Source of the DNA: Tsuneonella troitsensis
Lineage (GTDB): Bacteria > Pseudomonadota > Alphaproteobacteria > Sphingomonadales > Sphingomonadaceae
Reading direction: 5' to 3'
DNA length: 64,000 bases
NCBI RefSeq assembly: GCF_001441535.1
Contig: NZ_LMAU01000001.1
Location: forward strand, 620,001-684,000
The notes beneath the pieces were generated by a model. The model searched no databases. It was not told the DNA's origin and saw only the letters and a list, made by a program, of their open reading frames with translations. Of this stretch, positions 5,924 to 34,539 are shown one piece after another (position 1 is the stretch's first letter; the number at the start of each line of letters is the position of its first letter). Position numbers and translations under genes: made by a program.

Positions 5924-6433
5924 ATGGACTGGCTTGGAGACTTCGACGCCTACTGGGCCTGGTTCGCGCTCGGCCTGGTCCTCGCGGGGCTCGAGATGGT
6001 CGTTCCCGGCGTTTATCTCTTCTGGCTCGCGCTCGCCGCGCTGGCGACGGGAGCGCTGACTTTTGCGTTCGATCCCGGGGTGCCGCTGCAGATCGTCAAC
6101 TTCGTGTTCCTGTCGCTGATCATCGTGTTCAGCGCCAAACGGATCCTGAGGGAGCAGCCGATCGCGAGTTCCGATCCCCTGATGAACAACCGCATGGGCC
6201 GGCTTGTCGGCCAGACCGGCACGGTCGCGGTGGCCATCGAGCACGGCGAGGGCCGCGTGCGGCAGGGCGACAGCGAGTGGTCGGCCCGCGGGCCGGAGCT
6301 TGCCGCCGGCACCCGGGTCCGCATCACGGGATTCGATGGCGGCACGCTGATCGTGGAGCCGCTCACCCTGATCGCCGGCGCGGGGAGCGATCTGGAGGTC
6401 GACGGAGGCACTGCCGCACCTACGGGCGACTGA
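5924..6433 (+). CDS. NfeD family membrane protein (partner of the SPFH protein)
   Basis: A 169-residue short-type NfeD protein. Two or three hydrophobic segments (about 12-85) anchor it in the inner membrane; the C-terminal third (MGRLVGQTGTVAV... GTRVRITGFDGGTLIVEPL) is the OB-fold NfeD domain. Short NfeD proteins act with the stomatin/QmcA encoded next to them in membrane maintenance; the protease domain of long NfeD is absent here, as expected. The gene starts 10 bases after the qmcA stop. The next gene is convergent, ending 17 bases downstream. Confidence 0.9.
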   Translation: MDWLGDFDAYWAWFALGLVLAGLEMVVPGVYLFWLALAALATGALTFAFDPGVPLQIVNFVFLSLIIVFSAKRILREQPIASSDPLMNNRMGRLVGQTGTVAVAIEHGEGRVRQGDSEWSARGPELAAGTRVRITGFDGGTLIVEPLTLIAGAGSDLEVDGGTAAPTGD

Positions 6434-6450
6434 CGCCCGATCAAGACTGC

Positions 6451-7395
6451 CTAGCCTGCGATCTTGTCGTTGAACCGGCCATGCTTGCGATGGCGCACCA
6501 TCCAGCGGTCGAGAAACAGGCCGAGAGGCCGCGGTGCGATCCCTAGCTCCTTCATCCCTGGCAGATTGCCCGACGGACGGTTCCCCGCCTTGAGCAAAGT
6601 CCACTGATCGGTGTTCATCGGCGTACCCGGCAGCATCGCGAACACCGCAGAAGCGCCATCGGGGACGTTGATGAAGGTGCGTTCGCGGAATTGCGCCCTG
6701 GCGATCCTCTCGTTGAGGTCGCGCATCGTGATCGCCTCGGGTCCGGCAATCTCGTAGGTCTTGCCGCCGTGCCGTGCGGGATCGGCGAGCGCCGCGACGA
6801 CCGCGGCCGCCGCATCGTCGACATAGAGCGGCTGGACCGGCGCATTCGGCGCGAACACCGGGAGGATCGGCATCTTGGCGATCAACCCGGCGAACATCTG
6901 GATGAAGTTGTCGTCCTCTCCGAATACGATCGAGGGACGCAGGATAGTCGCATTCGGATAGGCGGCGAGCACCCCGGTTTCGCTCTCGGCCTTGGCGCGG
7001 GCATATCCCGCCAGCGATTCGGGATCGGCACCGATGGCGCTGACGTGGACGAGCGCCGCGCATCTCGCATCGGCAGCGGCTTGCGCCACGTTGCGCGCGC
7101 TGCCCGCGATGGCTTTCATCAGGTCGCCGGAGAACGTGCCGACGAGGTTCACCACGGCATCGGCGCCGGCCACTGCGGCGGCCGCGCTTGCCGGACGGGT
7201 CGCGTCGCACTTCGCGAACTGAAGCTGCCCCAGTTGCGCGAGCGGCTTGAGGTCAAACGCCTTGTGCGGATTGCGGCTGGCGATGCGAACCCGCGCGCCA
7301 TGCGCCAGCAGCGCCTGGGCAACGTGGTCGCCGAGGAAGCCGCTGCCGCCGATGACTGCCACCAGCTTGCCGTTCAGGGTATGAGTCTGAGCCAT
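6451..7395 (-). CDS. NAD(P)-binding epimerase-like protein, complex I NDUFA9 family
   Basis: A 314-residue atypical short-chain dehydrogenase. The Rossmann motif GGSGFLGDHVA lies at about 16-26; the central part has VVNLVGTF, VHVSAIGAD and LRPSIVFGEDDNFIQMFA, typical of the NDUFA9-like subfamily conserved in alphaproteobacteria and mitochondria. In mitochondria NDUFA9 is a complex I subunit; bacterial homologues may be assembly-related or act as general NAD(P)H-binding proteins. The classical YxxxK site is altered here to the YARAKAE segment (Y and K four apart), so cofactor binding is expected and catalysis is uncertain. The gene is oriented away from tRNA-Leu, 148 bases from it, and is the last chromosomal gene before the island. 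Confidence 0.88.
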   Translation of the reverse strand: MAQTHTLNGKLVAVIGGSGFLGDHVAQALLAHGARVRIASRNPHKAFDLKPLAQLGQLQFAKCDATRPASAAAAVAGADAVVNLVGTFSGDLMKAIAGSARNVAQAAADARCAALVHVSAIGADPESLAGYARAKAESETGVLAAYPNATILRPSIVFGEDDNFIQMFAGLIAKMPILPVFAPNAPVQPLYVDDAAAAVVAALADPARHGGKTYEIAGPEAITMRDLNERIARAQFRERTFINVPDGASAVFAMLPGTPMNTDQWTLLKAGNRPSGNLPGMKELGIAPRPLGLFLDRWMVRHRKHGRFNDKIAG

Positions 7396-7543
7396 AGTGT
7401 CCTGCTTCGAATTGCGCGCCGGCCCTGCCGCAAACGGGGCAATGTATCAACGGCCAAGCGAAGCCACGTTGACAAGTCCGCAGCCCCTCCGTATCGGCGC
7501 CCCCCTACCCGGCAGCCACTCCACGATGGATGGTTGCTACCGT

Positions 7544-7630
7544 GCCCAGATGGCGGAATTGGTAGACGCACCAGCTTCAGGTGCTGGCGCTCGCAAGGGC
7601 GTGGAGGTTCGAGTCCTCTTCTGGGCACCA
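7544..7630 (+). tRNA. tRNA-Leu, anticodon CAG
   Basis: An 87-base class II tRNA. The acceptor stem pairs GCCCAGA (7544-7550) with TCTGGGC (7620-7626); a discriminator A and an encoded CCA end the gene. The anticodon stem is CCAGC/GCTGG with loop TTCAGGT, placing anticodon CAG at 7578-7580. The long variable arm (GGCGCTCGCAAGGGCGTGG region) and T-loop GGTTCGAGTCC are those of tRNA-Leu. The integrase gene lies 187 bases downstream in the same direction, and an imperfect copy of the 3' end is at 34521-34539, so this is the attachment gene of the adjacent island. Confidence 0.97.
7611..7630 (+). repeat. Candidate left attachment site (attL), 3' end of tRNA-Leu
   Basis: The sequence GAGTCCTCTTCTGGGCACCA ends the tRNA. 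Fourteen bases (GAGTCCTCTTCTGG) recur exactly at 34521-34534, followed by GCACCA here against CACCA there (one G fewer). A tRNA 3' end is the usual target of this class of integrase. Confidence 0.65.
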
Positions 7631-7708
7631 TTTGTTCTTTCGCTGACGTTCGTCAGTGGATTCACAAACCCATTGGAATATGGTACAAAATCCTCGGATT
7701 TGATCGCT

Positions 7709-7797
7709 GGCGTTCGCCTGCGTCCGTTTACGACCTTGGGGGCTCTGGGGGCCTTTTTTGCCCGAGGCCCCATCCGTAAACGGACTCGCAAAACGCC
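7709..7797. repeat. Nested imperfect palindrome between tRNA-Leu and integrase
   Basis: Three inverted pairs are nested: GGCGTT (7709-7714) with AACGCC (7792-7797); GTCCGTTTACG (7722-7732) with CGTAAACGGAC (7775-7785), an exact 11-base pair; and GGGGCCT (7748-7754) with AGGCCCC (7765-7771). The inner loop contains a T run. The whole folds into an 89-base hairpin ending 20 bases before the integrase start codon. It could be integrase arm sites, a folded leader or a terminator protecting the integrase from tRNA read-through. Confidence 0.8.
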
Positions 7798-7817
7798 ACT
7801 TTTCGAGGTGAGGCCCC

Positions 7818-9008
7818 ATGGCGTTGACCGATCTTCAGCTGAAGCAAGCGACTCCACGCGAGCGCGACTGGAAGCTCTCCGACGGCGGGGGGCTATACAT
7901 TCTCATTCGCACCAACGGCTCTAAGTTGTGGCGCATGAAGTACCGCCAGGACGGCCGGGAAAAGAAATTGACCTTCGGGCGCTATCCCGAGGTAGGCCTG
8001 CGCGAGGCGCGCCTTAAGCGCGACGAAGCCCGGGTCGAGATCGGCCGGGGCGGTGATCCGGCCCGGCGCAAGCGTGAGGAAAAGATCGCCGCCTATATTC
8101 GCGCTGGCGACACGTTCGAATCGGTTGCGCACGACTTCATCGCCAAACGCGAGGTCGAGGGGCTGGCGATGGCCACTCTGGTCAAAATGAACTGGCTGGC
8201 TGCCGTGCTGAACAAATCGATCGGCAAGCGCCCGATCGCCGAAATCTCTCCCCACGAGATGCTCAGCGTACTCAAGAAGCACGAGCACGAAGGCAATTAC
8301 GAAAAAGCGCGGCGCCTGCGCAGCTTCGCCTCTCGGGTGTTTCGTTTCGGGGTGGCAACGCTACGCTGCGAACATGATCCCTGTGCGCCGCTTCAAGGGG
8401 CGTTGATCGCACCGAAAGCGAAGCACTATGCGGCGATCACCGATCCCGCGGAGCTCGGCGGTTTGTTGCGGGCGATCGACAAGTACGAAGGCAACTACAC
8501 CACTCGCTTTGCCCTCCAAATCGCGCCTCACGTGTTTGTGCGCCCGGGCGAGCTGCGGCACGCCGAGTGGGACGAGCTCGACATTGCAGCATCAGTATGG
8601 CGGATCCCGGCTGGGAAGATGAAGTCACGGCGCCCGCATGCGGTGCCGCTTTCGCGCCAAGTGCTCGCGATCATCGAGCAGATCCGAACCGTGAATGGCG
8701 GGTCGCGGTTCGTCTTTCGGTCGATGCATGCGCGTGGTCGGCCGATGAGCGAGAACACGGTCAACGCAGCGCTCAGGCGCATGGGATACTCGGGCGACGA
8801 GATGACCGCTCATGGTCTGCGCGCGACTGCGTCCACGTTGCTCAACGAGTCTGGTTTGTGGAGCCACGATGCAATCGAGCGGGCGCTCGCGCACCAAGAT
8901 CACAATGCCATCCGCGGCATCTATCACCGGGGTCAGCATTGGGATGAGCGCGTGCGCATGGCGCAGTGGTGGAGCGATTATCTCGACCAATTGCGCGGCG
9001 CCCAATGA
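7818..9008 (+). CDS. int: Tyrosine recombinase, P4-type island integrase
   Basis: A 396-residue site-specific recombinase that would integrate and excise the island at tRNA-Leu. The N-terminal DUF4102-type arm-binding domain (about 1-95) includes DGGGLYILI and KKLTFGRYPEVGL; the SAM-like core-binding domain spans about 100-190; the catalytic domain follows. Catalytic residues visible are the Arg of RPGELR, His332/Arg335 (HGLR), His359 (ALAHQ) and Tyr369 (GIYHRG), followed by the usual RMAQWWSDYLD tail. All are intact, so it is probably active. It lies directly downstream of the tRNA in the same orientation and is preceded by the nested palindrome. Confidence 0.95.
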   Translation: MALTDLQLKQATPRERDWKLSDGGGLYILIRTNGSKLWRMKYRQDGREKKLTFGRYPEVGLREARLKRDEARVEIGRGGDPARRKREEKIAAYIRAGDTFESVAHDFIAKREVEGLAMATLVKMNWLAAVLNKSIGKRPIAEISPHEMLSVLKKHEHEGNYEKARRLRSFASRVFRFGVATLRCEHDPCAPLQGALIAPKAKHYAAITDPAELGGLLRAIDKYEGNYTTRFALQIAPHVFVRPGELRHAEWDELDIAASVWRIPAGKMKSRRPHAVPLSRQVLAIIEQIRTVNGGSRFVFRSMHARGRPMSENTVNAALRRMGYSGDEMTAHGLRATASTLLNESGLWSHDAIERALAHQDHNAIRGIYHRGQHWDERVRMAQWWSDYLDQLRGAQ

Positions 9009-9773: not shown

Positions 9774-12056
9774 ATGACCGAACAACTGGGTGCCGGCCTC
9801 GAGCAATGGCACCACTGGAGCATCACCCTCGGGCTGGCCGAGCATCTGCTGCCCGTGGTGGTCAACCCCGACGCGCCAATCTCGCCTGACAGCAACATGA
9901 AGGCGCTGGGCAAGACGCCCAGCCGCTACAACTACAAGCACGAGGTCTCTGGGTTCGCGAAGTGGACCGACCACCGCGCGACGCTCAAGGAGATCGGCAA
10001 GTGGGAGCTGGAAGAGGACTACGGCATCTGCATGCAGAGCCGCGAGGGCGGGCTGCGCGCGATCGACATCGACGTGCCGGGGACCAAGCGCAGCCGCAAG
10101 ATCGTCGAGCACATCGAAGGGCACTTCCCGCACCTGAAGTTCTACCGCCGGTCGCGTGAGCGCACCGGGAAGGTCCTGCTGCCGTTCAGGCTCGAGGGGC
10201 TGCTCACGAAGCGGGTGCTCAAGGTCAATGGCGGCATCATCGAGGTGCTCGGCGATGGCCAGCAGTGGATCGCCGAGGGGGCGTACGTCAAGGACGGCAA
10301 GGTCGACGGGCGCTACCTGTGGCCGGCTGGCCGGCCGGAAGTGATCGAGGACGTGCCGGTGCTCACGATGGAGCAGCTCGAGGACCTGTGCGAGGTGCTG
10401 GCCATGCTCTTCGAAGAGGGCGACGACGGCTGGTCGATCGCGCGCGAGCGGCGCACGGGGCTGGGCGAGTACAAGGGACCGCCGCGTGACGACGAGATCG
10501 GCGCGTGGCTGATCGAGAACTGGGAGATCACGGGTGACAAGGGCGACGGCACGCTGTTCGTGCGCTGCCCGTGGATCGACGGGCACAGCGGCGACAGCGG
10601 GCCGAGCGAAACGCAATACGCGCTTCCAGGCAATGGCTTCGGCAGAGGCCACTTCAAGTGCCTGCACGCCTCGTGCCAGCAGCGAACCGATGGCGAATTC
10701 CTAGAAGAAATGGGATTTAAGCACGATTTAAGCGACGCGCCGGACCTGCCGGACGTCGATGCTGGTAAGAGGGACAGTTTGGATCTGGCGCTACCTCGCC
10801 GAGGGCAGCGGGAAGCGCCTAAGTTCCTCCTGAATCGAAGCGGGCGCAAGGAAAGCCGGGTCTACAACCACGAGCTGTTCCTTCAATGCTCCGAGCTGTG
10901 TGGCATTCAGATCGCGTGGGACAACTTCACCGCGGCAATCGTATGGTCATCGGCGGGAGATGCAGTCGGTGAGGAACACTGGAAATCGTTCAGTGATGAG
11001 CACTACGCGCGGATCGTGCGCCAGATGGATAGAAACGGGTTCGTAGCGCAGGCCGCTTCCTCGATCCGGCCGGCAGTTTACTCAGTAGCGAGGCAGCGTC
11101 CGATCGACACGGCCATCGAGTGGGCACGGCGGCTACCGGAGTGGGACGGGATTTCGAGGATCGAAACTTTCCTACCTACTTATTTCAAAACCGAAGATCG
11201 GCATTATACGCGTTCAGTAAGTCGCTACATGTGGACCGCCCAAGCAGGGCGACTCCTCGACCCGGGCTGTCAGGCTGACATGGTGCCAATCTTTGTCAGT
11301 GCGCAGGGCACGCGCAAGACTTCGGCGATCCGGGCTCTGGCGCCAAGCATAACGATGTTCACGGACGTCAACCTCCTGGATCGGGACGACAACACTATTC
11401 GGAAGATGCGCGGCAAGTTGGTGCTCGAGCTGGACGAACTCCGAGGATTGCGAGGCCGGGCAGCGGAAGACGTGAAGAGCTTCATTACTCGCCGTGAAGA
11501 GGAGTGGGTGCCTAAGTACCAAGAGTTCACGAAGACATTCAAACGACGTTTTGTGATGTATGGATCCACTAACGACGACGATTTCCTTGGCGATCCTACC
11601 GGAGAACGGCGCTATCTGCCTGTGGAGGTAGGTGTCGCAGCTCAGATCGACGTGGAAGCAATTGAGCGAGACCGGCTGCAGCTGTGGGGAGAGGCAATCT
11701 TTCTGTGGCAGCGGGATGGAATCGCATGGGAGGAAGCTCAACGGCTCGCGATTAAAGAGCACGAACGCTTCAAGAGTTGCGATGAGTGGATCCCCCTGGT
11801 CGCTGAGTGGGCATTGTGTCCTGGTGGCTTGAGTGACCCTCACGCGTCGCCCTGCGACATGCCCTACAAGTGGCGAATTTCAGACGCACTGGCAGGGGCC
11901 GTCAATATTAGCCGGGCTACCAAGGCTGACGAGATGCGGATGAGCAAGGTCTTGACAGCAATGGGAGCAGTGAAGCGAAAAACGAACGGTTACTCTCAGT
12001 GGCACCTGGACCGATTTTCCGCACATAGCCGAATCTCGCCAAACGCTGACGGTTGA
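9774..12056 (+). CDS. VapE-type primase-helicase (phage-satellite replication protein)
   Basis: A 760-residue replication protein. The N-terminal third resembles a prim-pol domain (GICMQSREGGLRAIDIDVPG near residue 85-105). A CxxxC pair (CLHASC, about 300) may be a zinc element. The C-terminal half is a virulence-associated E (PF05272-type) ATPase: VRQMDRNGF, Walker A-like AQGTRKTSAIRALAP (about 508-522), LVLELDELRG as Walker B, and GSTNDDDFLGDPTGERRYLPVEV (about 597-619), the family's sensor block. The P-loop has Arg where canonical loops have Gly before Lys. Such proteins start replication of satellite elements. It is co-transcribed with the AlpA-like gene. A perfect 22-base inverted repeat follows within 100 bases. 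Confidence 0.85.
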   Translation: MTEQLGAGLEQWHHWSITLGLAEHLLPVVVNPDAPISPDSNMKALGKTPSRYNYKHEVSGFAKWTDHRATLKEIGKWELEEDYGICMQSREGGLRAIDIDVPGTKRSRKIVEHIEGHFPHLKFYRRSRERTGKVLLPFRLEGLLTKRVLKVNGGIIEVLGDGQQWIAEGAYVKDGKVDGRYLWPAGRPEVIEDVPVLTMEQLEDLCEVLAMLFEEGDDGWSIARERRTGLGEYKGPPRDDEIGAWLIENWEITGDKGDGTLFVRCPWIDGHSGDSGPSETQYALPGNGFGRGHFKCLHASCQQRTDGEFLEEMGFKHDLSDAPDLPDVDAGKRDSLDLALPRRGQREAPKFLLNRSGRKESRVYNHELFLQCSELCGIQIAWDNFTAAIVWSSAGDAVGEEHWKSFSDEHYARIVRQMDRNGFVAQAASSIRPAVYSVARQRPIDTAIEWARRLPEWDGISRIETFLPTYFKTEDRHYTRSVSRYMWTAQAGRLLDPGCQADMVPIFVSAQGTRKTSAIRALAPSITMFTDVNLLDRDDNTIRKMRGKLVLELDELRGLRGRAAEDVKSFITRREEEWVPKYQEFTKTFKRRFVMYGSTNDDDFLGDPTGERRYLPVEVGVAAQIDVEAIERDRLQLWGEAIFLWQRDGIAWEEAQRLAIKEHERFKSCDEWIPLVAEWALCPGGLSDPHASPCDMPYKWRISDALAGAVNISRATKADEMRMSKVLTAMGAVKRKTNGYSQWHLDRFSAHSRISPNADG

Positions 12057-12649
12057 AACCGATCAATCACATCAGGGCGACTGTGGGGCGGCCGCAAGGC
12101 GACCTCGAGACCTACCGGTGTGATTGAAAAGATTGCTGGCAGGGAGGCCAGGGAGACCAGGGCAGCTTATTTTCACTAATATGCAGGACTAGTGCGGTAT
12201 TGAACTGGCGCGGGAAGGCACGAGAAAAATGCTCGCCCTGGTCTCCCTGGCCTCCCCATTGATCTGCGTTGCTTCATCTTTCCAACCATCACGACCCCGC
12301 CAAGTCGCTAACAGCCATTCATGAATCCCTCAGAGCGCGGTGTTGCTGGGGCCTGGTCAGGGGCTTCCAGCGCGTGGGCCACCACTTCACCGCCTCAGTA
12401 GGGGGTACCGCTGCAGGACTCAAACCTAACACGTACTGAAAACATTACGGTAAATTGGTTTGTCTCACCCGACGCTACCGGAAGAAAACCAGTCCGACGC
12501 CGCTCGATTTTGCGGCGACGCCGTTTCACTGGTGAAGACGATCTGCGCCGACAACCGTCGCCGATGCTTTTCATCCTCAGCGATGCATGGAGTGGGCGGT
12601 GCGCGTGATTTCGAATGAGTGAGGGGCCGCAGACCCCTCACCCAAGCCG
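12057..12649. other. Gene-free 0.6 kb after the primase
   Basis: No reading frame with a ribosome site or recognisable protein was found. It holds the 22-base inverted repeat (12142-12256) and then about 390 bases without visible structure, more AT-rich than the core genome. It may include the replication origin of the element or the junction between the primase module and the cargo. Confidence 0.5.
12142..12256. repeat. Perfect 22-bp inverted repeat with 71-base spacer, candidate origin or hairpin
   Basis: The left arm (12142-12163, starting GGGAGGCCAGGGAGACC) is the exact reverse complement of the right arm (12235-12256, starting GCCCTGGTCTCCC). Each arm also contains internal near-repeats (GAGGCCAGG/GAGACCAGG), so it may be two iterons per arm. 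The AT-richer 71-base spacer contains CACTAATATGCAGGACTAGTG, itself partly palindromic. The position just downstream of a VapE-type primase suggests replication initiation; a terminator is less likely since no T run follows. Confidence 0.85.
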
Positions 12650-13141
12650 TCAAAAGCCGCGGACGATTGCGAGTGAGACCACGGGGTTCGGAACTCCACG
12701 AGCTGCCCACTTGGCATTCTGCTCACGGGCACGCGATTTGACTTCGGCGAGCAGTCGGTCGATTTCCCGCTGATCGTCCGCGATGACGATTGCCGCCTCT
12801 ACCAGCTGGTTGGGCTGAGCGCCGTCGAACATCGGGTGCAGCGATTTGATCTTGCTGATCGTCTGCCGTCCTACACGATCCAAATTGGGTGCGTGCATTC
12901 CAGTCCTTACGGTAGTGATGTTCTGGGGCTTGCCCGTCTTGTCGCAGGTGAACCGGACATAGGTGACGCCGGTTTCGCTCCGCGAGATGTTAACTCGCTC
13001 CAGCGCGGAATCGACGCTGCGTGACGTGCTCTCCACCCAACTCGGGAGAGAGGGATTGCCTGTCACTACCATTTGCTGGGGCTTGGCGGACACGGACGTG
13101 GCGAGACATGCCGCAAAAGCGGCTAATACCAGCTTGTTCAT
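12650..13141 (-). CDS. Exported hypothetical protein, TonB C-terminal-like domain
   Basis: A 163-residue protein with a clear signal peptide (MNKLVLAAFAACLATSVSA, cleavage after ALA-type SVSA). The central part (ETGVTYVRFTCDKTGKPQNITTVRTG ... ISKIKSLHPMFDGAQPNQLVEAAIVIADD) resembles the TonB C-terminal fold found in many exported Sphingomonad proteins. There is no transmembrane anchor other than the signal, so it is probably a free periplasmic domain rather than a working TonB. The C-terminal helix is charged. It stands alone with its promoter in the AT-rich gap 13142-13503. Function unknown. Confidence 0.75.
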   Translation of the reverse strand: MNKLVLAAFAACLATSVSAKPQQMVVTGNPSLPSWVESTSRSVDSALERVNISRSETGVTYVRFTCDKTGKPQNITTVRTGMHAPNLDRVGRQTISKIKSLHPMFDGAQPNQLVEAAIVIADDQREIDRLLAEVKSRAREQNAKWAARGVPNPVVSLAIVRGF

Positions 13142-13503: not shown

Positions 13504-15471
13504 TCATCGCACGAGCGAGTTTTCGGCCTCGGTCTTACAGTCATAGGTCAATTTGGGATCTGCGCAGAAGTCCGGCCACTCGCGCCGTGCGATCCAACTC
13601 TCGACGTGTCCGATCTCTTTCATTTTGGCGAAGAAACGCCGATCTCGGCGCATCCCGCTAGCATCAGGCCAAAAGAGGGTGGCGACTCCCCTTGCATCGC
13701 GGGGAGCGCGCTCGAGCCATGCGAACCCCCGCTCTAGATCGCCCATGCGCACCGCTGAGAAGGCATTGTACCATGCCTCCTTGGAATCCTTGGCAAAGGC
13801 CGCTGACGCAAAGCGATCGAAAGCCGCCCAGTTCAACTGGCTTGGCGCCGCGCGCCACTGCAGCTCGAAGCGCTGGCGTGTGGCAAGCGACGGATTGACC
13901 GGGGGGTCGCGGTCGAAGGCGGTAAGGGCCCGGATCGGATCGTTCTGGTAGAAGAGGATGGCGTTACGTGTGTATCCGGTGTTGTGGCTGTCGTTCCAGA
14001 TGCGCTTGACCTGGGCATCAAGCCGGGCCGCTTCGTCCAGCTCCCCGGCTCCCAGCAGTGCGAGCAGTTGGGCCTGCGCCGCAAAATAGCTGTTGGGCTC
14101 AAGGGCACTCGCCCTTTGCGCGGGATCCACAGCGGCGCGGACGTATCCCAGTTCGGCAAGCGCGCGCGAATACCGGGCAAGCAGTCCCGAGTGCTCCGGG
14201 TCGCGGCGCACTCCCTCCTCCAGCATGGGCATCGCTGGTCGCCCCGTCAGCTCGGACGCGGCGGCCATGGCCTGATGGGCCAACCCCGAGTCCGGATCGA
14301 TCGACAGGGCCTCGCGTGCCTGACGCTCCGCCTCGATTGCCAGTGCCGAGCGTTGCTCGGGGGTGGCATGGGCGAGGTTTGCGGTGGCGAGGGCCAGACA
14401 TGCCCAGCTTGCCGCACTGTCGGGGCGTCGAGCCACGATCTGCTTGGCGAGGCTATGCGCGCGGGGCCAGTCGAACGCCTCGACCGCGTCGCAGGCCGCG
14501 AGGTAGAGGCGCTTGCTCACCGGATCACCCAAGTCGCCCGAGGACCGATGCAGTCCGCAGCGAAGGACGCCGGCTATCCCGTATGCAGCCCGCTCGCGCA
14601 CGATGGCGGGCGCGAGTCCCGTGAACTCCCTGGCCCAGACGACAGCGCCGTTCAGCCTGTCGACCAATTGGACTTGGGCCGAGTGTTCAGTCGAATCGGC
14701 GGCCGGGGTGTATGAAACTTTGAGGGACAGGTCGGGCGCGGTCGATCCCCCCGGCTCAACCAATGTCAGAGCGGTCATGGGGCTCATCAACCGCGAAATT
14801 TCAGCGTTGAGGTCGCTTGCAAAACCCACAGTGCCGCGGCTGGCGGTCACGGGCTCGATCGTCATCGCCAGAGTGTCTTGCGACCGGGGGATCATTGCCG
14901 AACCGAGCAGCGCTGCGATGGCGACTGTTACCGCCACCGCGGTCGCATGAACGCCGCGGCCAGTCCGGGGCGCGATTTCGGCAATCTGCCGCCCGGCTTC
15001 GTCCCCCGGTTCGATAGCACCGGCGGCGACCTGCAATCGGTAGCCGACCTTGGGAATGGTCTCGATCGCAACCGCGTCTCCCGCCACAGCGGACAGGTGT
15101 CGGCGCAGGATCGAGATGATGCGGTTGACCGCGTCGTCGCCGACTATCCTGCGATCCCAGCATTCCGAGACGAGATCGTCGCGACTGCATGGTACCTCGC
15201 CGGAGCGGGCCAGTGCGACCAGCACCTGCATGACCAGCGGCTCGACGAGCGCCTGCTTTCCGCCCGTGCCGACCAGCTTTCGCAGGGCCGGTTCGACGGT
15301 TATCGGGCCGACGGTGAACATCCTGAGATGCGCCAGCGGCTCCGGCCCTCGCAGGTGCCGGGAAGGGTAGTCGAACGGTGTCTGCTCGATGTTCACCCCG
15401 CCGCCTCCAGTAGAAACGAACGCCTGCGTCATACCACATTGGCGGCGAACAGTATAAAATCGTTGAGACAT
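13504..15471 (-). CDS. Winged-helix DNA-binding protein with TPR-like C-terminus (CadC-like architecture)
   Basis: A 655-residue regulator. An OmpR/PhoB-type winged helix lies at about 50-150 (FTVGPITVEPALRKLVG ... PKVGYRLQ). A single hydrophobic segment follows (about 176-194, ATAVAVTVAIAALLGSAMI), then an adenylate-cyclase-associated/TPR-type periplasmic domain (RPDSAASWACLALATANLAHA; IDPDSGLAHQAMAAASELTG). This is the one-component layout of CadC and ToxR: DNA binding in the cytoplasm, sensing outside. The first ATG has no good ribosome site; ATGs at 15432 and about 15321 are alternatives. It is divergent from the beta-propeller gene at 15576, with 104 bases between, and probably controls it. 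Ligand unknown. Confidence 0.8.
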   Translation of the reverse strand: MSQRFYTVRRQCGMTQAFVSTGGGGVNIEQTPFDYPSRHLRGPEPLAHLRMFTVGPITVEPALRKLVGTGGKQALVEPLVMQVLVALARSGEVPCSRDDLVSECWDRRIVGDDAVNRIISILRRHLSAVAGDAVAIETIPKVGYRLQVAAGAIEPGDEAGRQIAEIAPRTGRGVHATAVAVTVAIAALLGSAMIPRSQDTLAMTIEPVTASRGTVGFASDLNAEISRLMSPMTALTLVEPGGSTAPDLSLKVSYTPAADSTEHSAQVQLVDRLNGAVVWAREFTGLAPAIVRERAAYGIAGVLRCGLHRSSGDLGDPVSKRLYLAACDAVEAFDWPRAHSLAKQIVARRPDSAASWACLALATANLAHATPEQRSALAIEAERQAREALSIDPDSGLAHQAMAAASELTGRPAMPMLEEGVRRDPEHSGLLARYSRALAELGYVRAAVDPAQRASALEPNSYFAAQAQLLALLGAGELDEAARLDAQVKRIWNDSHNTGYTRNAILFYQNDPIRALTAFDRDPPVNPSLATRQRFELQWRAAPSQLNWAAFDRFASAAFAKDSKEAWYNAFSAVRMGDLERGFAWLERAPRDARGVATLFWPDASGMRRDRRFFAKMKEIGHVESWIARREWPDFCADPKLTYDCKTEAENSLVR

Positions 15472-15575
15472 CGGAAGGAAATCAGGGAAACATCAGGATT
15501 TCCCGAAACGCGTGGTGCACCGTTGCCCAGTGAAAGTGCCCTCCGGCACTCGACTATCAGGGAAGGATCCGCGCT

Positions 15576-16508
15576 GTGGCCAAGCAAAAAACTCCATTCA
15601 TTTCATCCTGCCACGCCCGCCAGTTGGCGGTGCTGACCGCCGCACTGTCACCCTTTATCGTCGGCGGGGCTCTCGTGGCCAAGGAATACGGCGACTGGAG
15701 CACCCCAGTGAGCGCCGAGATCGGATCGGACGTCGATCTCAACACGGCCTCCAATGATGGTTGCCCCATTCTCTCGCCCGACGGACTGAGCCTTTTCATG
15801 GCCAGCAACCGTCCGGGTAGCCAGAGTCTCGATATCTGGGTGGCGAAGCGCGATCGCACCGACGAAGGGTGGGGCAAACCCGAGAGGCTGCCTGCTCCGG
15901 TCAACTCGGAAACGGACGATTTCTGTCCGACGCCTGTACGCGGGAACCGGCTGTTCTTTGTCAGCAGGCGCGATGAAGCGAATGGCGACATCTACTCGAC
16001 CCGGCTCACGAAAGATGGCTGGGAAGCGCCTGTGCGCTTGGGGCCGAACATCAATGGGAGCGCGCAGGAATGGAGCCCGTCCTATTTCGAGGACGATCAG
16101 GGGCGACCCGTTCTGTACTTCTCCAGCACGCGAAGCGGCAGGCAGGAGATTTATGCCAGCGTGAACTGGGGCCCGGCCAAGAAAGTCGCCGAACTCAGCC
16201 CGGATTCAAGCGATGCGGCACGCCCCAATGTCCGTCGCGACGGCCGCGAGATCGTCTTTGACTCGACGAGATCGCCCAACCTTGGCGGTCCCGATGTCTG
16301 GGTAGCCACCCGCCCGTCAACGAGTGCGAGTTGGTCGGCACCCCAGCACCTGGCTGGCGTCAGCAGCGCCGCAGCAGACACGCGGGCGTCGTTGTCGTGG
16401 GACGGCACGATCATGATGGTCGGCTCGGGCCGAGCTGGGAACGAGGGACCCGCGGATATCTACGTCACCCGCCGGCCGCGGCTGACCGGGATGGGATCTA
16501 AGGAATGA
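15576..16508 (+). CDS. Exported WD40-like (PD40/TolB-type) beta-propeller protein
   Basis: A 310-residue protein with an N-terminal hydrophobic segment (about 15-30, LAVLTAALSPFIVGGAL) acting as signal or anchor. The rest consists of repeated PD40 blades: CPILSPDGLSLFMASNR, FCPTPVRGNRLFFVSRR, EWSPSYFEDDQGRPVLYFSS, ARPNVRRDGREIVFDSTR and ASLSWDGTIMMVGS. It would sit in the periplasm as a binding or sensing propeller. The start GTG/ATG region is 104 bases from the divergent winged-helix gene. Its TGA overlaps the ATG of the next small gene (ATGA), so they are translationally coupled. Function unknown; likely partner of the flanking regulators. Confidence 0.8.
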   Translation: MAKQKTPFISSCHARQLAVLTAALSPFIVGGALVAKEYGDWSTPVSAEIGSDVDLNTASNDGCPILSPDGLSLFMASNRPGSQSLDIWVAKRDRTDEGWGKPERLPAPVNSETDDFCPTPVRGNRLFFVSRRDEANGDIYSTRLTKDGWEAPVRLGPNINGSAQEWSPSYFEDDQGRPVLYFSSTRSGRQEIYASVNWGPAKKVAELSPDSSDAARPNVRRDGREIVFDSTRSPNLGGPDVWVATRPSTSASWSAPQHLAGVSSAAADTRASLSWDGTIMMVGSGRAGNEGPADIYVTRRPRLTGMGSKE

Positions 16509-16828
16509 TGAGAATGGCCATCCTGGGGGTCATGGGCGTGTTTCTGGGCCTGCTTGTAGTAGCGGTCTCTGGACCGGGTTCGAGTGAATCGACGGCTGAA
16601 GCCGATCATGGTCAGGCGTTGGGCGGTGCCGATTTCGCTGATCGCATCGGGTTGGATCCGCTGCCGATTGGCGACGACGAACATGAGCCGCCGGCAACCG
16701 GTCCATATCCGCGCGGGCCAAGCCCAAGCACCTGGCCGGACGATCTAAATCCATCGGCGCCAAGAGGCCGCGATGCGGGGATCTGGGGAGAACCCGCTCA
16801 GTTCGCACCTACTGATCCCGTCAGTTAG
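16505..16828 (+). CDS. Small single-pass membrane or exported protein, Pro-rich
   Basis: A 107-residue protein. One hydrophobic segment (about 4-23, MAILGVMGVFLGLLVVAVSG) is followed by an acidic then Pro/Gly-rich extracytoplasmic tail (DDEHEPPATGPYPRGPSPSTWP). The gene overlaps the beta-propeller stop by 4 bases (ATGA) and is followed after 10 bases by the zinc-knuckle winged-helix gene, so a three-gene operon is likely. No family recognised. The overlap, and a codon usage like its neighbours, support it as real. Confidence 0.6.
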   Translation: MMRMAILGVMGVFLGLLVVAVSGPGSSESTAEADHGQALGGADFADRIGLDPLPIGDDEHEPPATGPYPRGPSPSTWPDDLNPSAPRGRDAGIWGEPAQFAPTDPVS

Positions 16829-16838
16829 CGAGGAGGCA

Positions 16839-17279
16839 ATGAGAATGCACTGTTGTCCCAATTGCGGCAGCAACCTGGGTGCACTTGAGCCAGTCGAGTT
16901 CGGCAATGTCGCCATTGATGAAGATGGCACAATCATTCTCGATGGCCGAAGGGTCCGTCTCACCCGCACGCTCTACAGAGTCGCAGAGTGCATAATACGA
17001 GCGCGAGGAAGAGGGGTTACGAGAGACATCCTTGCCGCGCGCTTGGATAGCGACGTCTTCGACGGCTCGATCAAGAAGTACATCGAGCGCGTTCGTAGCA
17101 GCTTTAGGGCAATCGACCCGGGCTTCGATCAGATCCGGTCGCTGCACGGATTTGGCGCGTACTGCTGGCGATTTCGAGCGGCTCGAATCAGCACGACGCT
17201 TTCGAGGAGTGCGGATGTACGGAGCACAACCCTCGGAGGGCAAGCCTCTGGCGGAGCGGTACTGGGGTTCGGCCAGTAA
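16839..17279 (+). CDS. Winged-helix (OmpR/PhoB-type) protein with N-terminal Cys knuckle
   Basis: A 146-residue protein beginning MRMHCCPNCGSNLGALEP. Cys5/6 and Cys9 form a CxxC knuckle; a winged helix follows (about 20-115: IILDGRRVRLTRTLYRVAECIIRARGRGVTRDIL ... KYIERVRSSFRAIDPGF ... HGFGAYCWRF). There is no receiver domain. Similar short proteins occur in Sphingomonad prophages and islands. GAGGAGG lies 5 bases before the ATG; the ATG two codons on is an alternative start. The last 30 residues are low-complexity and may be non-native. It is the third gene of the propeller operon and, with the divergent CadC-like gene, the second winged-helix protein of the cluster. Confidence 0.75.
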   Translation: MRMHCCPNCGSNLGALEPVEFGNVAIDEDGTIILDGRRVRLTRTLYRVAECIIRARGRGVTRDILAARLDSDVFDGSIKKYIERVRSSFRAIDPGFDQIRSLHGFGAYCWRFRAARISTTLSRSADVRSTTLGGQASGGAVLGFGQ

Positions 17280-34520: not shown

Positions 34521-34539
34521 GAGTCCTCTTCTGGCACCA
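34521..34539 (+). repeat. Candidate right attachment site (attR), imperfect copy of the tRNA-Leu 3' end
   Basis: GAGTCCTCTTCTGGCACCA matches the end of tRNA-Leu (7611-7630) with one G missing in the GGGC tract. The first 14 bases are exact, which is very unlikely by chance in 64 kb. No other tRNA-like sequence adjoins it. It separates the exported hydrolase genes from the pectin locus. Confidence 0.6.

Follow-up and report, generated by a model that had tools for sequence, protein, structure and literature searches.

Membrane-tethered one-component regulators are common, yet only a few have a known partner that provides their signal. CadC of Escherichia coli and other membrane-integrated regulators of the ToxR-like kind combine an N-terminal OmpR-type winged helix with a single transmembrane segment and a C-terminal sensor half. 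That few signal-supplying partners are known is also stated in PMC9214523, according to which ToxR/ToxS and VtrA/VtrC each consist of a membrane-tethered winged-helix regulator and an adjacently encoded exported partner, which is lipocalin-like, is encoded downstream in operon order, and forms an obligate periplasmic heterodimer with the regulator. In a survey of membrane-tethered regulators (PMC10269533), the words propeller, WD40, TPR and tetratricopeptide are absent from the main text, and in a literature search no title or abstract opening among the matches listed concerned the pairing of a PD40 propeller with a CadC- or ToxR-type regulator. Here, a stretch of 64,000 nucleotides (nt) from Tsuneonella troitsensis, referred to as the window, was analysed, in which a gene encoding a CadC-like regulator with a TPR-like sensor half lies divergent from a gene encoding a putatively exported PD40 beta-propeller. 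This propeller-regulator pair recurs in related bacteria, which points to a new type of partnership for sensing from the outside inwards.

The pair is part of a cluster of four genes (Table 1), which the original prediction had combined into a single signalling device, with the propeller as sensor, a small membrane protein as relay, and two winged-helix proteins as DNA-binding outputs. The four genes at 13504-17279 proved to be real, apart from small corrections such as the start of the last gene, and both winged-helix proteins lack a receiver domain as had been proposed (for the regulator, no receiver match in a Pfam scan).

Table 1. Features of the gene cluster and of the probable island that carries it (window coordinates).
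Feature	Coordinates	Strand	Remarks
CadC-like one-component regulator	13504..15471	(-)	655 amino acids (aa); OmpR-type winged helix, transmembrane segment, TPR-like C-terminal half
Divergent intergenic region	15472..15575		104 nt; ATCAGG repeated in direct orientation (15481, 15492, 15556), candidate operator only
PD40 beta-propeller, predicted to be exported	15576..16508	(+)	310 aa, GTG start; PD40 2.2e-13 (Pfam)
Small Pro-rich protein, single-pass or exported, orphan	16505..16828	(+)	107 aa; ATGA overlap with propeller stop
CxxC and OmpR-type winged-helix protein, no receiver	16839..17279	(+)	Small family
tRNA-Leu(CAG)	7544..7630	(+)	Probable attachment site of the island carrying the cluster
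Tyrosine integrase, Arm-DNA-binding domain (P4-type)	7818..9008	(+)	
VapE-type primase/helicase of integrated element	9774..12056	(+)	
tRNA-Leu 3' end, second copy with one G missing	34521..34539	(+)	Probable right attachment site

The Trans_reg_C domain of the regulator was found at residues 77-146 (Pfam, 2.5e-10, 40.7 bits against a cut-off of 26.2) and matched the DNA-binding domain of E. coli CadC (5ju7) at 1.8e-10, and a simple Kyte-Doolittle hydropathy scan placed a single transmembrane segment at 176-194, between the DNA-binding and sensor halves. On these sequence features the protein is ToxR/CadC-like in the broad sense and not an equivalog of E. coli CadC, as it scored 41 bits with the NCBIfam CadC equivalog model, which has a curated cut-off of 400. 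It differs from E. coli CadC in its TPR-like sensor half and in the propeller gene next door. The TPR assignment in the original prediction stands as a likeness, with matches that are weak and below the Pfam cut-off; this half would be periplasmic, and its closest match is a SARP-type protein without a propeller link (L101, 4.6e-52). In the gap between the divergent genes, the first two ATCAGG repeats are 11 bp apart; since the corresponding 17-nt pattern, with one mismatch allowed, is expected 0.41 times by chance in the window and was picked after looking, it is weak evidence for an operator. A sigma-70-like promoter was sought in the gap and none was found.

The PD40 domain of the propeller comprises about five repeats as counted by eye, and PD40 repeats are shared with the TolB, PorE and CHU_0125 propellers. 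In contrast to those proteins, the window propeller has two conserved cysteines and scores far below the curated NCBIfam cut-offs (CHU_0125, 1.2e-20; PorE, 4.5e-16; TolB, 2.6e-6, with 26.6 bits against 343 for the TolB equivalog), and neither Pfam nor NCBIfam matched an OmpA or TolB N-terminal domain in it. C63 and C117 (window propeller numbering) are invariant in 15 aligned propeller genes, and all 23 propeller genes, that of the window included, encode two cysteines spaced 52-58 residues apart. This pair and the N-termini, which by eye resemble signal sequences, are consistent with an exported propeller; its periplasmic location, as given in the original prediction, is read by eye from the N-terminus. 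No solved structure was related to the propeller family profile at E 0.01, and no propeller was found on plasmids.

Propeller homologues were searched in 396 genomes of the order (395 besides that of the window), with at most five candidates scored per genome, and in 71 genomes of the genus of genome G192. Close homologues, defined by E at or below 1e-35 in the order-wide search (which excludes the weaker L166, L004, L167 and L168), were present at 13 loci in 11 of the 395 genomes and at eight loci (nine genes) in the genus of G192, amounting to 21 loci and 22 genes outside the window, all from the same bacterial family and matched over most of their length. At 10 of these 21 loci a winged-helix-TPR regulator directly adjoins the propeller. 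Five of these regulators are CadC-type, either divergent (L181, L237, L238) or in tandem (L175, L184), and the other five, all convergent (L178, L179, L234, L235, L236) and thereby without a common promoter region, are SARP-type, with a different DNA-binding head that includes a BTAD domain, likewise followed by one transmembrane segment and a TPR half. Each genome contains 7-14 Trans_reg_C and 0-8 BTAD matches, and from these family counts chance adjacency is predicted at 0.22 of the 21 loci, a figure to be read with the reservation that some SARP-type genes may have escaped the BTAD counts. The corresponding P value is 5e-15 on the assumption of independent loci, which does not hold because L234 nearly duplicates L235 and L237 nearly duplicates L238; after rough grouping (5 of 13) it is 1.5e-7. 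In this tally, the regulator genes of L234 and L238 are frame-broken and were counted as neighbours unrepaired, the piece adjoining the L234 propeller being in a different frame from the scored piece; the L236 regulator is truncated by the contig end, and the L187 propeller is split over two frames. A first search of 97 other close genomes yielded PD40 relatives in 10, all remote and not among the 21 loci; no winged-helix regulator was found beside them in the short loci or in 12 contexts of up to 20 kb, one weak winged-helix match lying 7 kb from a remote PD40 gene (L090).

The six CadC-type winged helices linked to a propeller lay scattered in a tree of 34 such domains and formed no clade (5 changes, a value as low in 148 of 500 shuffles). 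In the midpoint-rooted propeller tree, CadC links occurred in both deep clades, the window propeller branching first in one of them, and the SARP links fell together in a subgroup of that same clade. By this pattern, one type of partner was exchanged for another but a TPR regulator was retained; the propeller appears to have kept, or regained, a winged-helix-TPR neighbour despite changes in DNA-binding head and gene orientation.

The reading preferred here, held tentatively and with something less than an even chance, is that the divergent pair constitutes a membrane-tethered one-component regulator with an exported propeller as its periplasmic partner. It builds on the genes and their domain make-up, on the recurrent adjacency in varied layouts, and on the non-monophyly of the linked CadC-type heads; its conjectural components are export and topology, contact between the two proteins, the direction in which the signal runs, the binding sites, co-transcription, signal and regulon. 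The CadC-like winged helix would reside in the cytoplasm and the TPR half in the periplasm, where the exported PD40 propeller would bind a ligand or state of the envelope or the exterior. The state of the propeller would be read by the TPR half, upon which the regulator would switch promoters within the 104-nt gap and probably elsewhere too. The same propeller family adjoins different winged-helix-TPR regulators, with CadC-type or SARP-type heads, and the small and CxxC genes would be co-transcribed passengers or a second local regulator rather than a conserved part. By analogy, the pair would most likely work like ToxR/ToxS or VtrA/VtrC, with which it shares a membrane-tethered winged-helix regulator and an adjacently encoded exported partner, yet not be a co-component member as defined in PMC9214523: by sequence the partner is a PD40 propeller and not lipocalin-like, and the partner-downstream order is replaced by a divergent one in the window and is approached in the tandem loci L175 and L184 only. 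The part of the original prediction with the propeller as sensor and the TPR regulator as output is thereby a live hypothesis.

Several observations weigh against this partnership. The SARP-type category was added after such genes had been seen beside propellers, and a neighbour of CadC or SARP type is missing at 11 of the 21 propeller loci (including L241, whose upstream LuxR-type regulator was left out of the tally). The regulator search gave 37 matches outside the window, among which L203 and L204 lack a winged helix by profiles and L216 lies at a contig end; 35 of the 37 have no propeller beside them, the two exceptions (L175 and L181) both being in G192. Neither protein therefore needs the other, and the neighbourhood proposed in the original prediction is thus recurrent for propeller and regulator at some loci only. 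Moreover, the TPR halves of linked regulators are only weakly like that of the window (best domain E 5.6e-12 for SARP-type and 9e-8 for CadC-type), a likeness that generic TPR similarity could explain. The label 'linked' is somewhat clustered in the propeller tree (5 changes; 19 of 500 shuffles as low), and the 10 cases therefore represent fewer independent events. The single-sequence structure model of the propeller (predicted local distance difference test score, pLDDT, 43.6) is too poor for use. Finally, adjacency is no proof of contact, and target genes classically lie next to, and divergent from, the gene of their regulator.

Almost as likely as the periplasmic partnership is that the propeller is an output, in which case the regulator would sense alone and control the neighbouring propeller gene, whose product would do an envelope job. 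The divergent layout of the window, L181, L237 and L238 and the tandem layout of L175 and L184 resemble local target genes, and regulators found mostly without a propeller fit such a role. It is countered by the several regulator lineages that meet the same propeller family, and mildly by the five SARP-type pairs, whose convergent layout offers no shared promoter region for local control. A broader proposition is that, in sphingomonad-type Alphaproteobacteria, several unrelated families of winged-helix-TPR regulators use an exchangeable exported propeller as their periplasmic co-sensor. This would amount to a propeller class of co-component signalling, with the sensor partner as the conserved module and not the DNA-binding head, and is slightly less probable than either of these two explanations. 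Such a recurring and modular pairing supplies well-defined cases, across three arrangements and both types of DNA-binding head, in which partnership at the protein level can be told from plain local regulation.

A third explanation, by which the four genes are unrelated island cargo that came together by chance, is improbable for the set as a whole; it is unlikely for the pair and the default for the small and CxxC genes. In its favour, the cluster lies on a probable island, between integrase/primase and cbb3-oxidase genes, and the four-gene unit of the original prediction is not conserved, since no other searched genome has the same four genes and the small and CxxC genes are unlinked to the pair elsewhere. 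The recurrent adjacency of propeller and regulator argues against it for those two genes. Least likely is the full four-gene device, for which the overlapping or close starts of the propeller, small and CxxC genes and the exported-looking neighbours of CxxC genes elsewhere might speak, and against which stand the comparative results on the small and CxxC genes given below, which leave the membrane relay and the second DNA-binding output without comparative support. The four-gene account is thus corrected, and for the small and CxxC genes the refuting outcome named in the original prediction applies: they stand outside the pair and look like local island additions.

The propeller, small and CxxC genes form a tight three-gene run that starts 104 nt from the regulator gene, and the ATGA coupling noted originally is present, so that these genes may share one transcript. 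The GC content at codon positions 2/3 is 0.52/0.75 for the regulator, 0.56/0.74 for the propeller, 0.56/0.59 for the small gene and 0.53/0.64 for the CxxC gene; coding bias is therefore clear for the first two, fair for the CxxC gene and weak for the small gene. The small protein has a hydrophobic N-terminal stretch and a Pro-rich tail, and matched nothing in Pfam or NCBIfam at E up to 1. No convincing homologue was found in the 395 other genomes, where three weak matches (E 4e-4 to 6.8e-4) had no propeller or CadC gene nearby, and none was found at the 21 other propeller loci. A common Pro-rich partner was considered and rejected, as the Pro-rich lipoprotein-like genes that follow the propeller at L184 and L241 are unrelated by BLASTP to each other or to the small protein.

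For the CxxC gene, the ATG at 16839 is preferred over the ATG at 16773 of the open reading frame list, because AGGAGG lies just upstream and homologues align from near there. Its product scored 22 bits with Trans_reg_C, below the Pfam cut-off of 26.2. An AlphaFold2 model from five sequences (mean pLDDT 62.6, moderate confidence) has the OmpR/PhoB order of elements, with a four-strand N-terminal sheet, three helices and a C-terminal hairpin, and its best Foldseek matches were OmpR/PhoB-family response regulators and effector domains, including PrrA and PhoB (E 1.6e-5 to 7e-5). The earlier label 'Cys-knuckle' is fair for the single CxxC conserved in 17 of 17 rows (window, 15 loci and one duplicate) and does not extend to a complete zinc ribbon, as a second conserved pair is absent and Zn_ribbon_TFIIB scored 12.5 bits against a cut-off of 22.

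Elsewhere in the order, 11 of the 395 other genomes carry the CxxC family, at 12 loci in total, and further contigs carry it at four, which, with L141 being a repeat, gives 15 distinct loci outside the window, with named members in Erythrobacter, Porphyrobacter and Altererythrobacter; all encode CxxCG and a winged helix. The contexts of these 15 loci yielded neither a propeller-family gene nor a CadC gene, the only CadC-profile matches there being weak and to the CxxC genes themselves; L146 and L150 have a large PD40-repeat protein (~1,140 aa) some 5-6 kb off that the propeller profile did not match. Conversely, CxxC-protein winged-helix matches occurred at only two of the 21 other propeller loci (L180 and L240), each separated from the propeller by over 6 kb. 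The CxxC genes often adjoin genes for exported-looking proteins. Nine of the 15 loci (L139, L142, L144, L145, L147, L149, L151, L152, L153) include two DUF4331 genes, one gene for a TPR protein and a presumably HupE-like gene, seven of these nine also with an extracytoplasmic function sigma factor and an RskA-like anti-sigma gene (Pfam run on one member each). The position and orientation of the CxxC gene vary within this cluster. Of the remaining loci, two lie by ferritin-like genes and two by DUF1800/DUF1501 genes (in each pair one Pfam-tested and one assigned by eye), one follows a lipoprotein-like gene that Pfam did not match, and one is beside nothing evident. Searches for phage, plasmid or viral relatives of the CxxC protein gave no match, and no paper on the family was among the literature matches listed.

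Among CadC-type winged-helix-TPR regulators with a transmembrane-like stretch (L175, L181, L184, L189, L102, L202-L238), 25 of 30 have RR immediately before a weakly hydrophobic, often Gly/Ala-rich segment, and 22 of 30 fit a stricter pattern like that of twin-arginine translocation (Tat) signals, against 57 of 400 control windows of 20 residues; four of the 34 regulators were omitted, three without such a stretch and one not parsed. These segments are possible internal Tat signal anchors, in which case the TPR half could be exported folded. The positive-inside rule could account for part of the RR excess, and the window regulator does not have the motif.

The cluster is probably carried on an island of about 26.9 kb, since the tRNA-Leu 3' end (7611-7630) recurs as an imperfect direct repeat at 34521-34539, beyond the integrase and primase genes; two such matches occurred in none of 100 shuffles. 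Besides the cluster, the island holds NnrS, a HemN-like radical-SAM protein, cbb3 oxidase genes, two Crp-type regulators and a hemerythrin. A second NnrS copy, 71% identical, is located on another contig of the genome. In an empty-site comparison, the stretches behind tRNA-Leu in the two species without an integrase at this site matched nothing in the window, and the right border therefore rests on the repeat alone. The left flank and tRNA are kept in all 10 other genomes of the genus, eight of which have an integrase relative behind the tRNA (one partial), so that the site is, as judged from these sequences, an integration hot spot; none of the 10 contains a propeller match. Between primase and regulator, a small exported-looking protein is encoded at 12650-13141 (-), with a weak TonB_C-like match below the cut-off, and the gap behind the primase gene contains a perfect 22-nt inverted repeat (12142-12163 and 12235-12256, 71 nt apart). 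At the same tRNA-Leu site in another species, L122 carries at 6251-8194 a gene that reads by eye as a TIR-domain/TPR protein.

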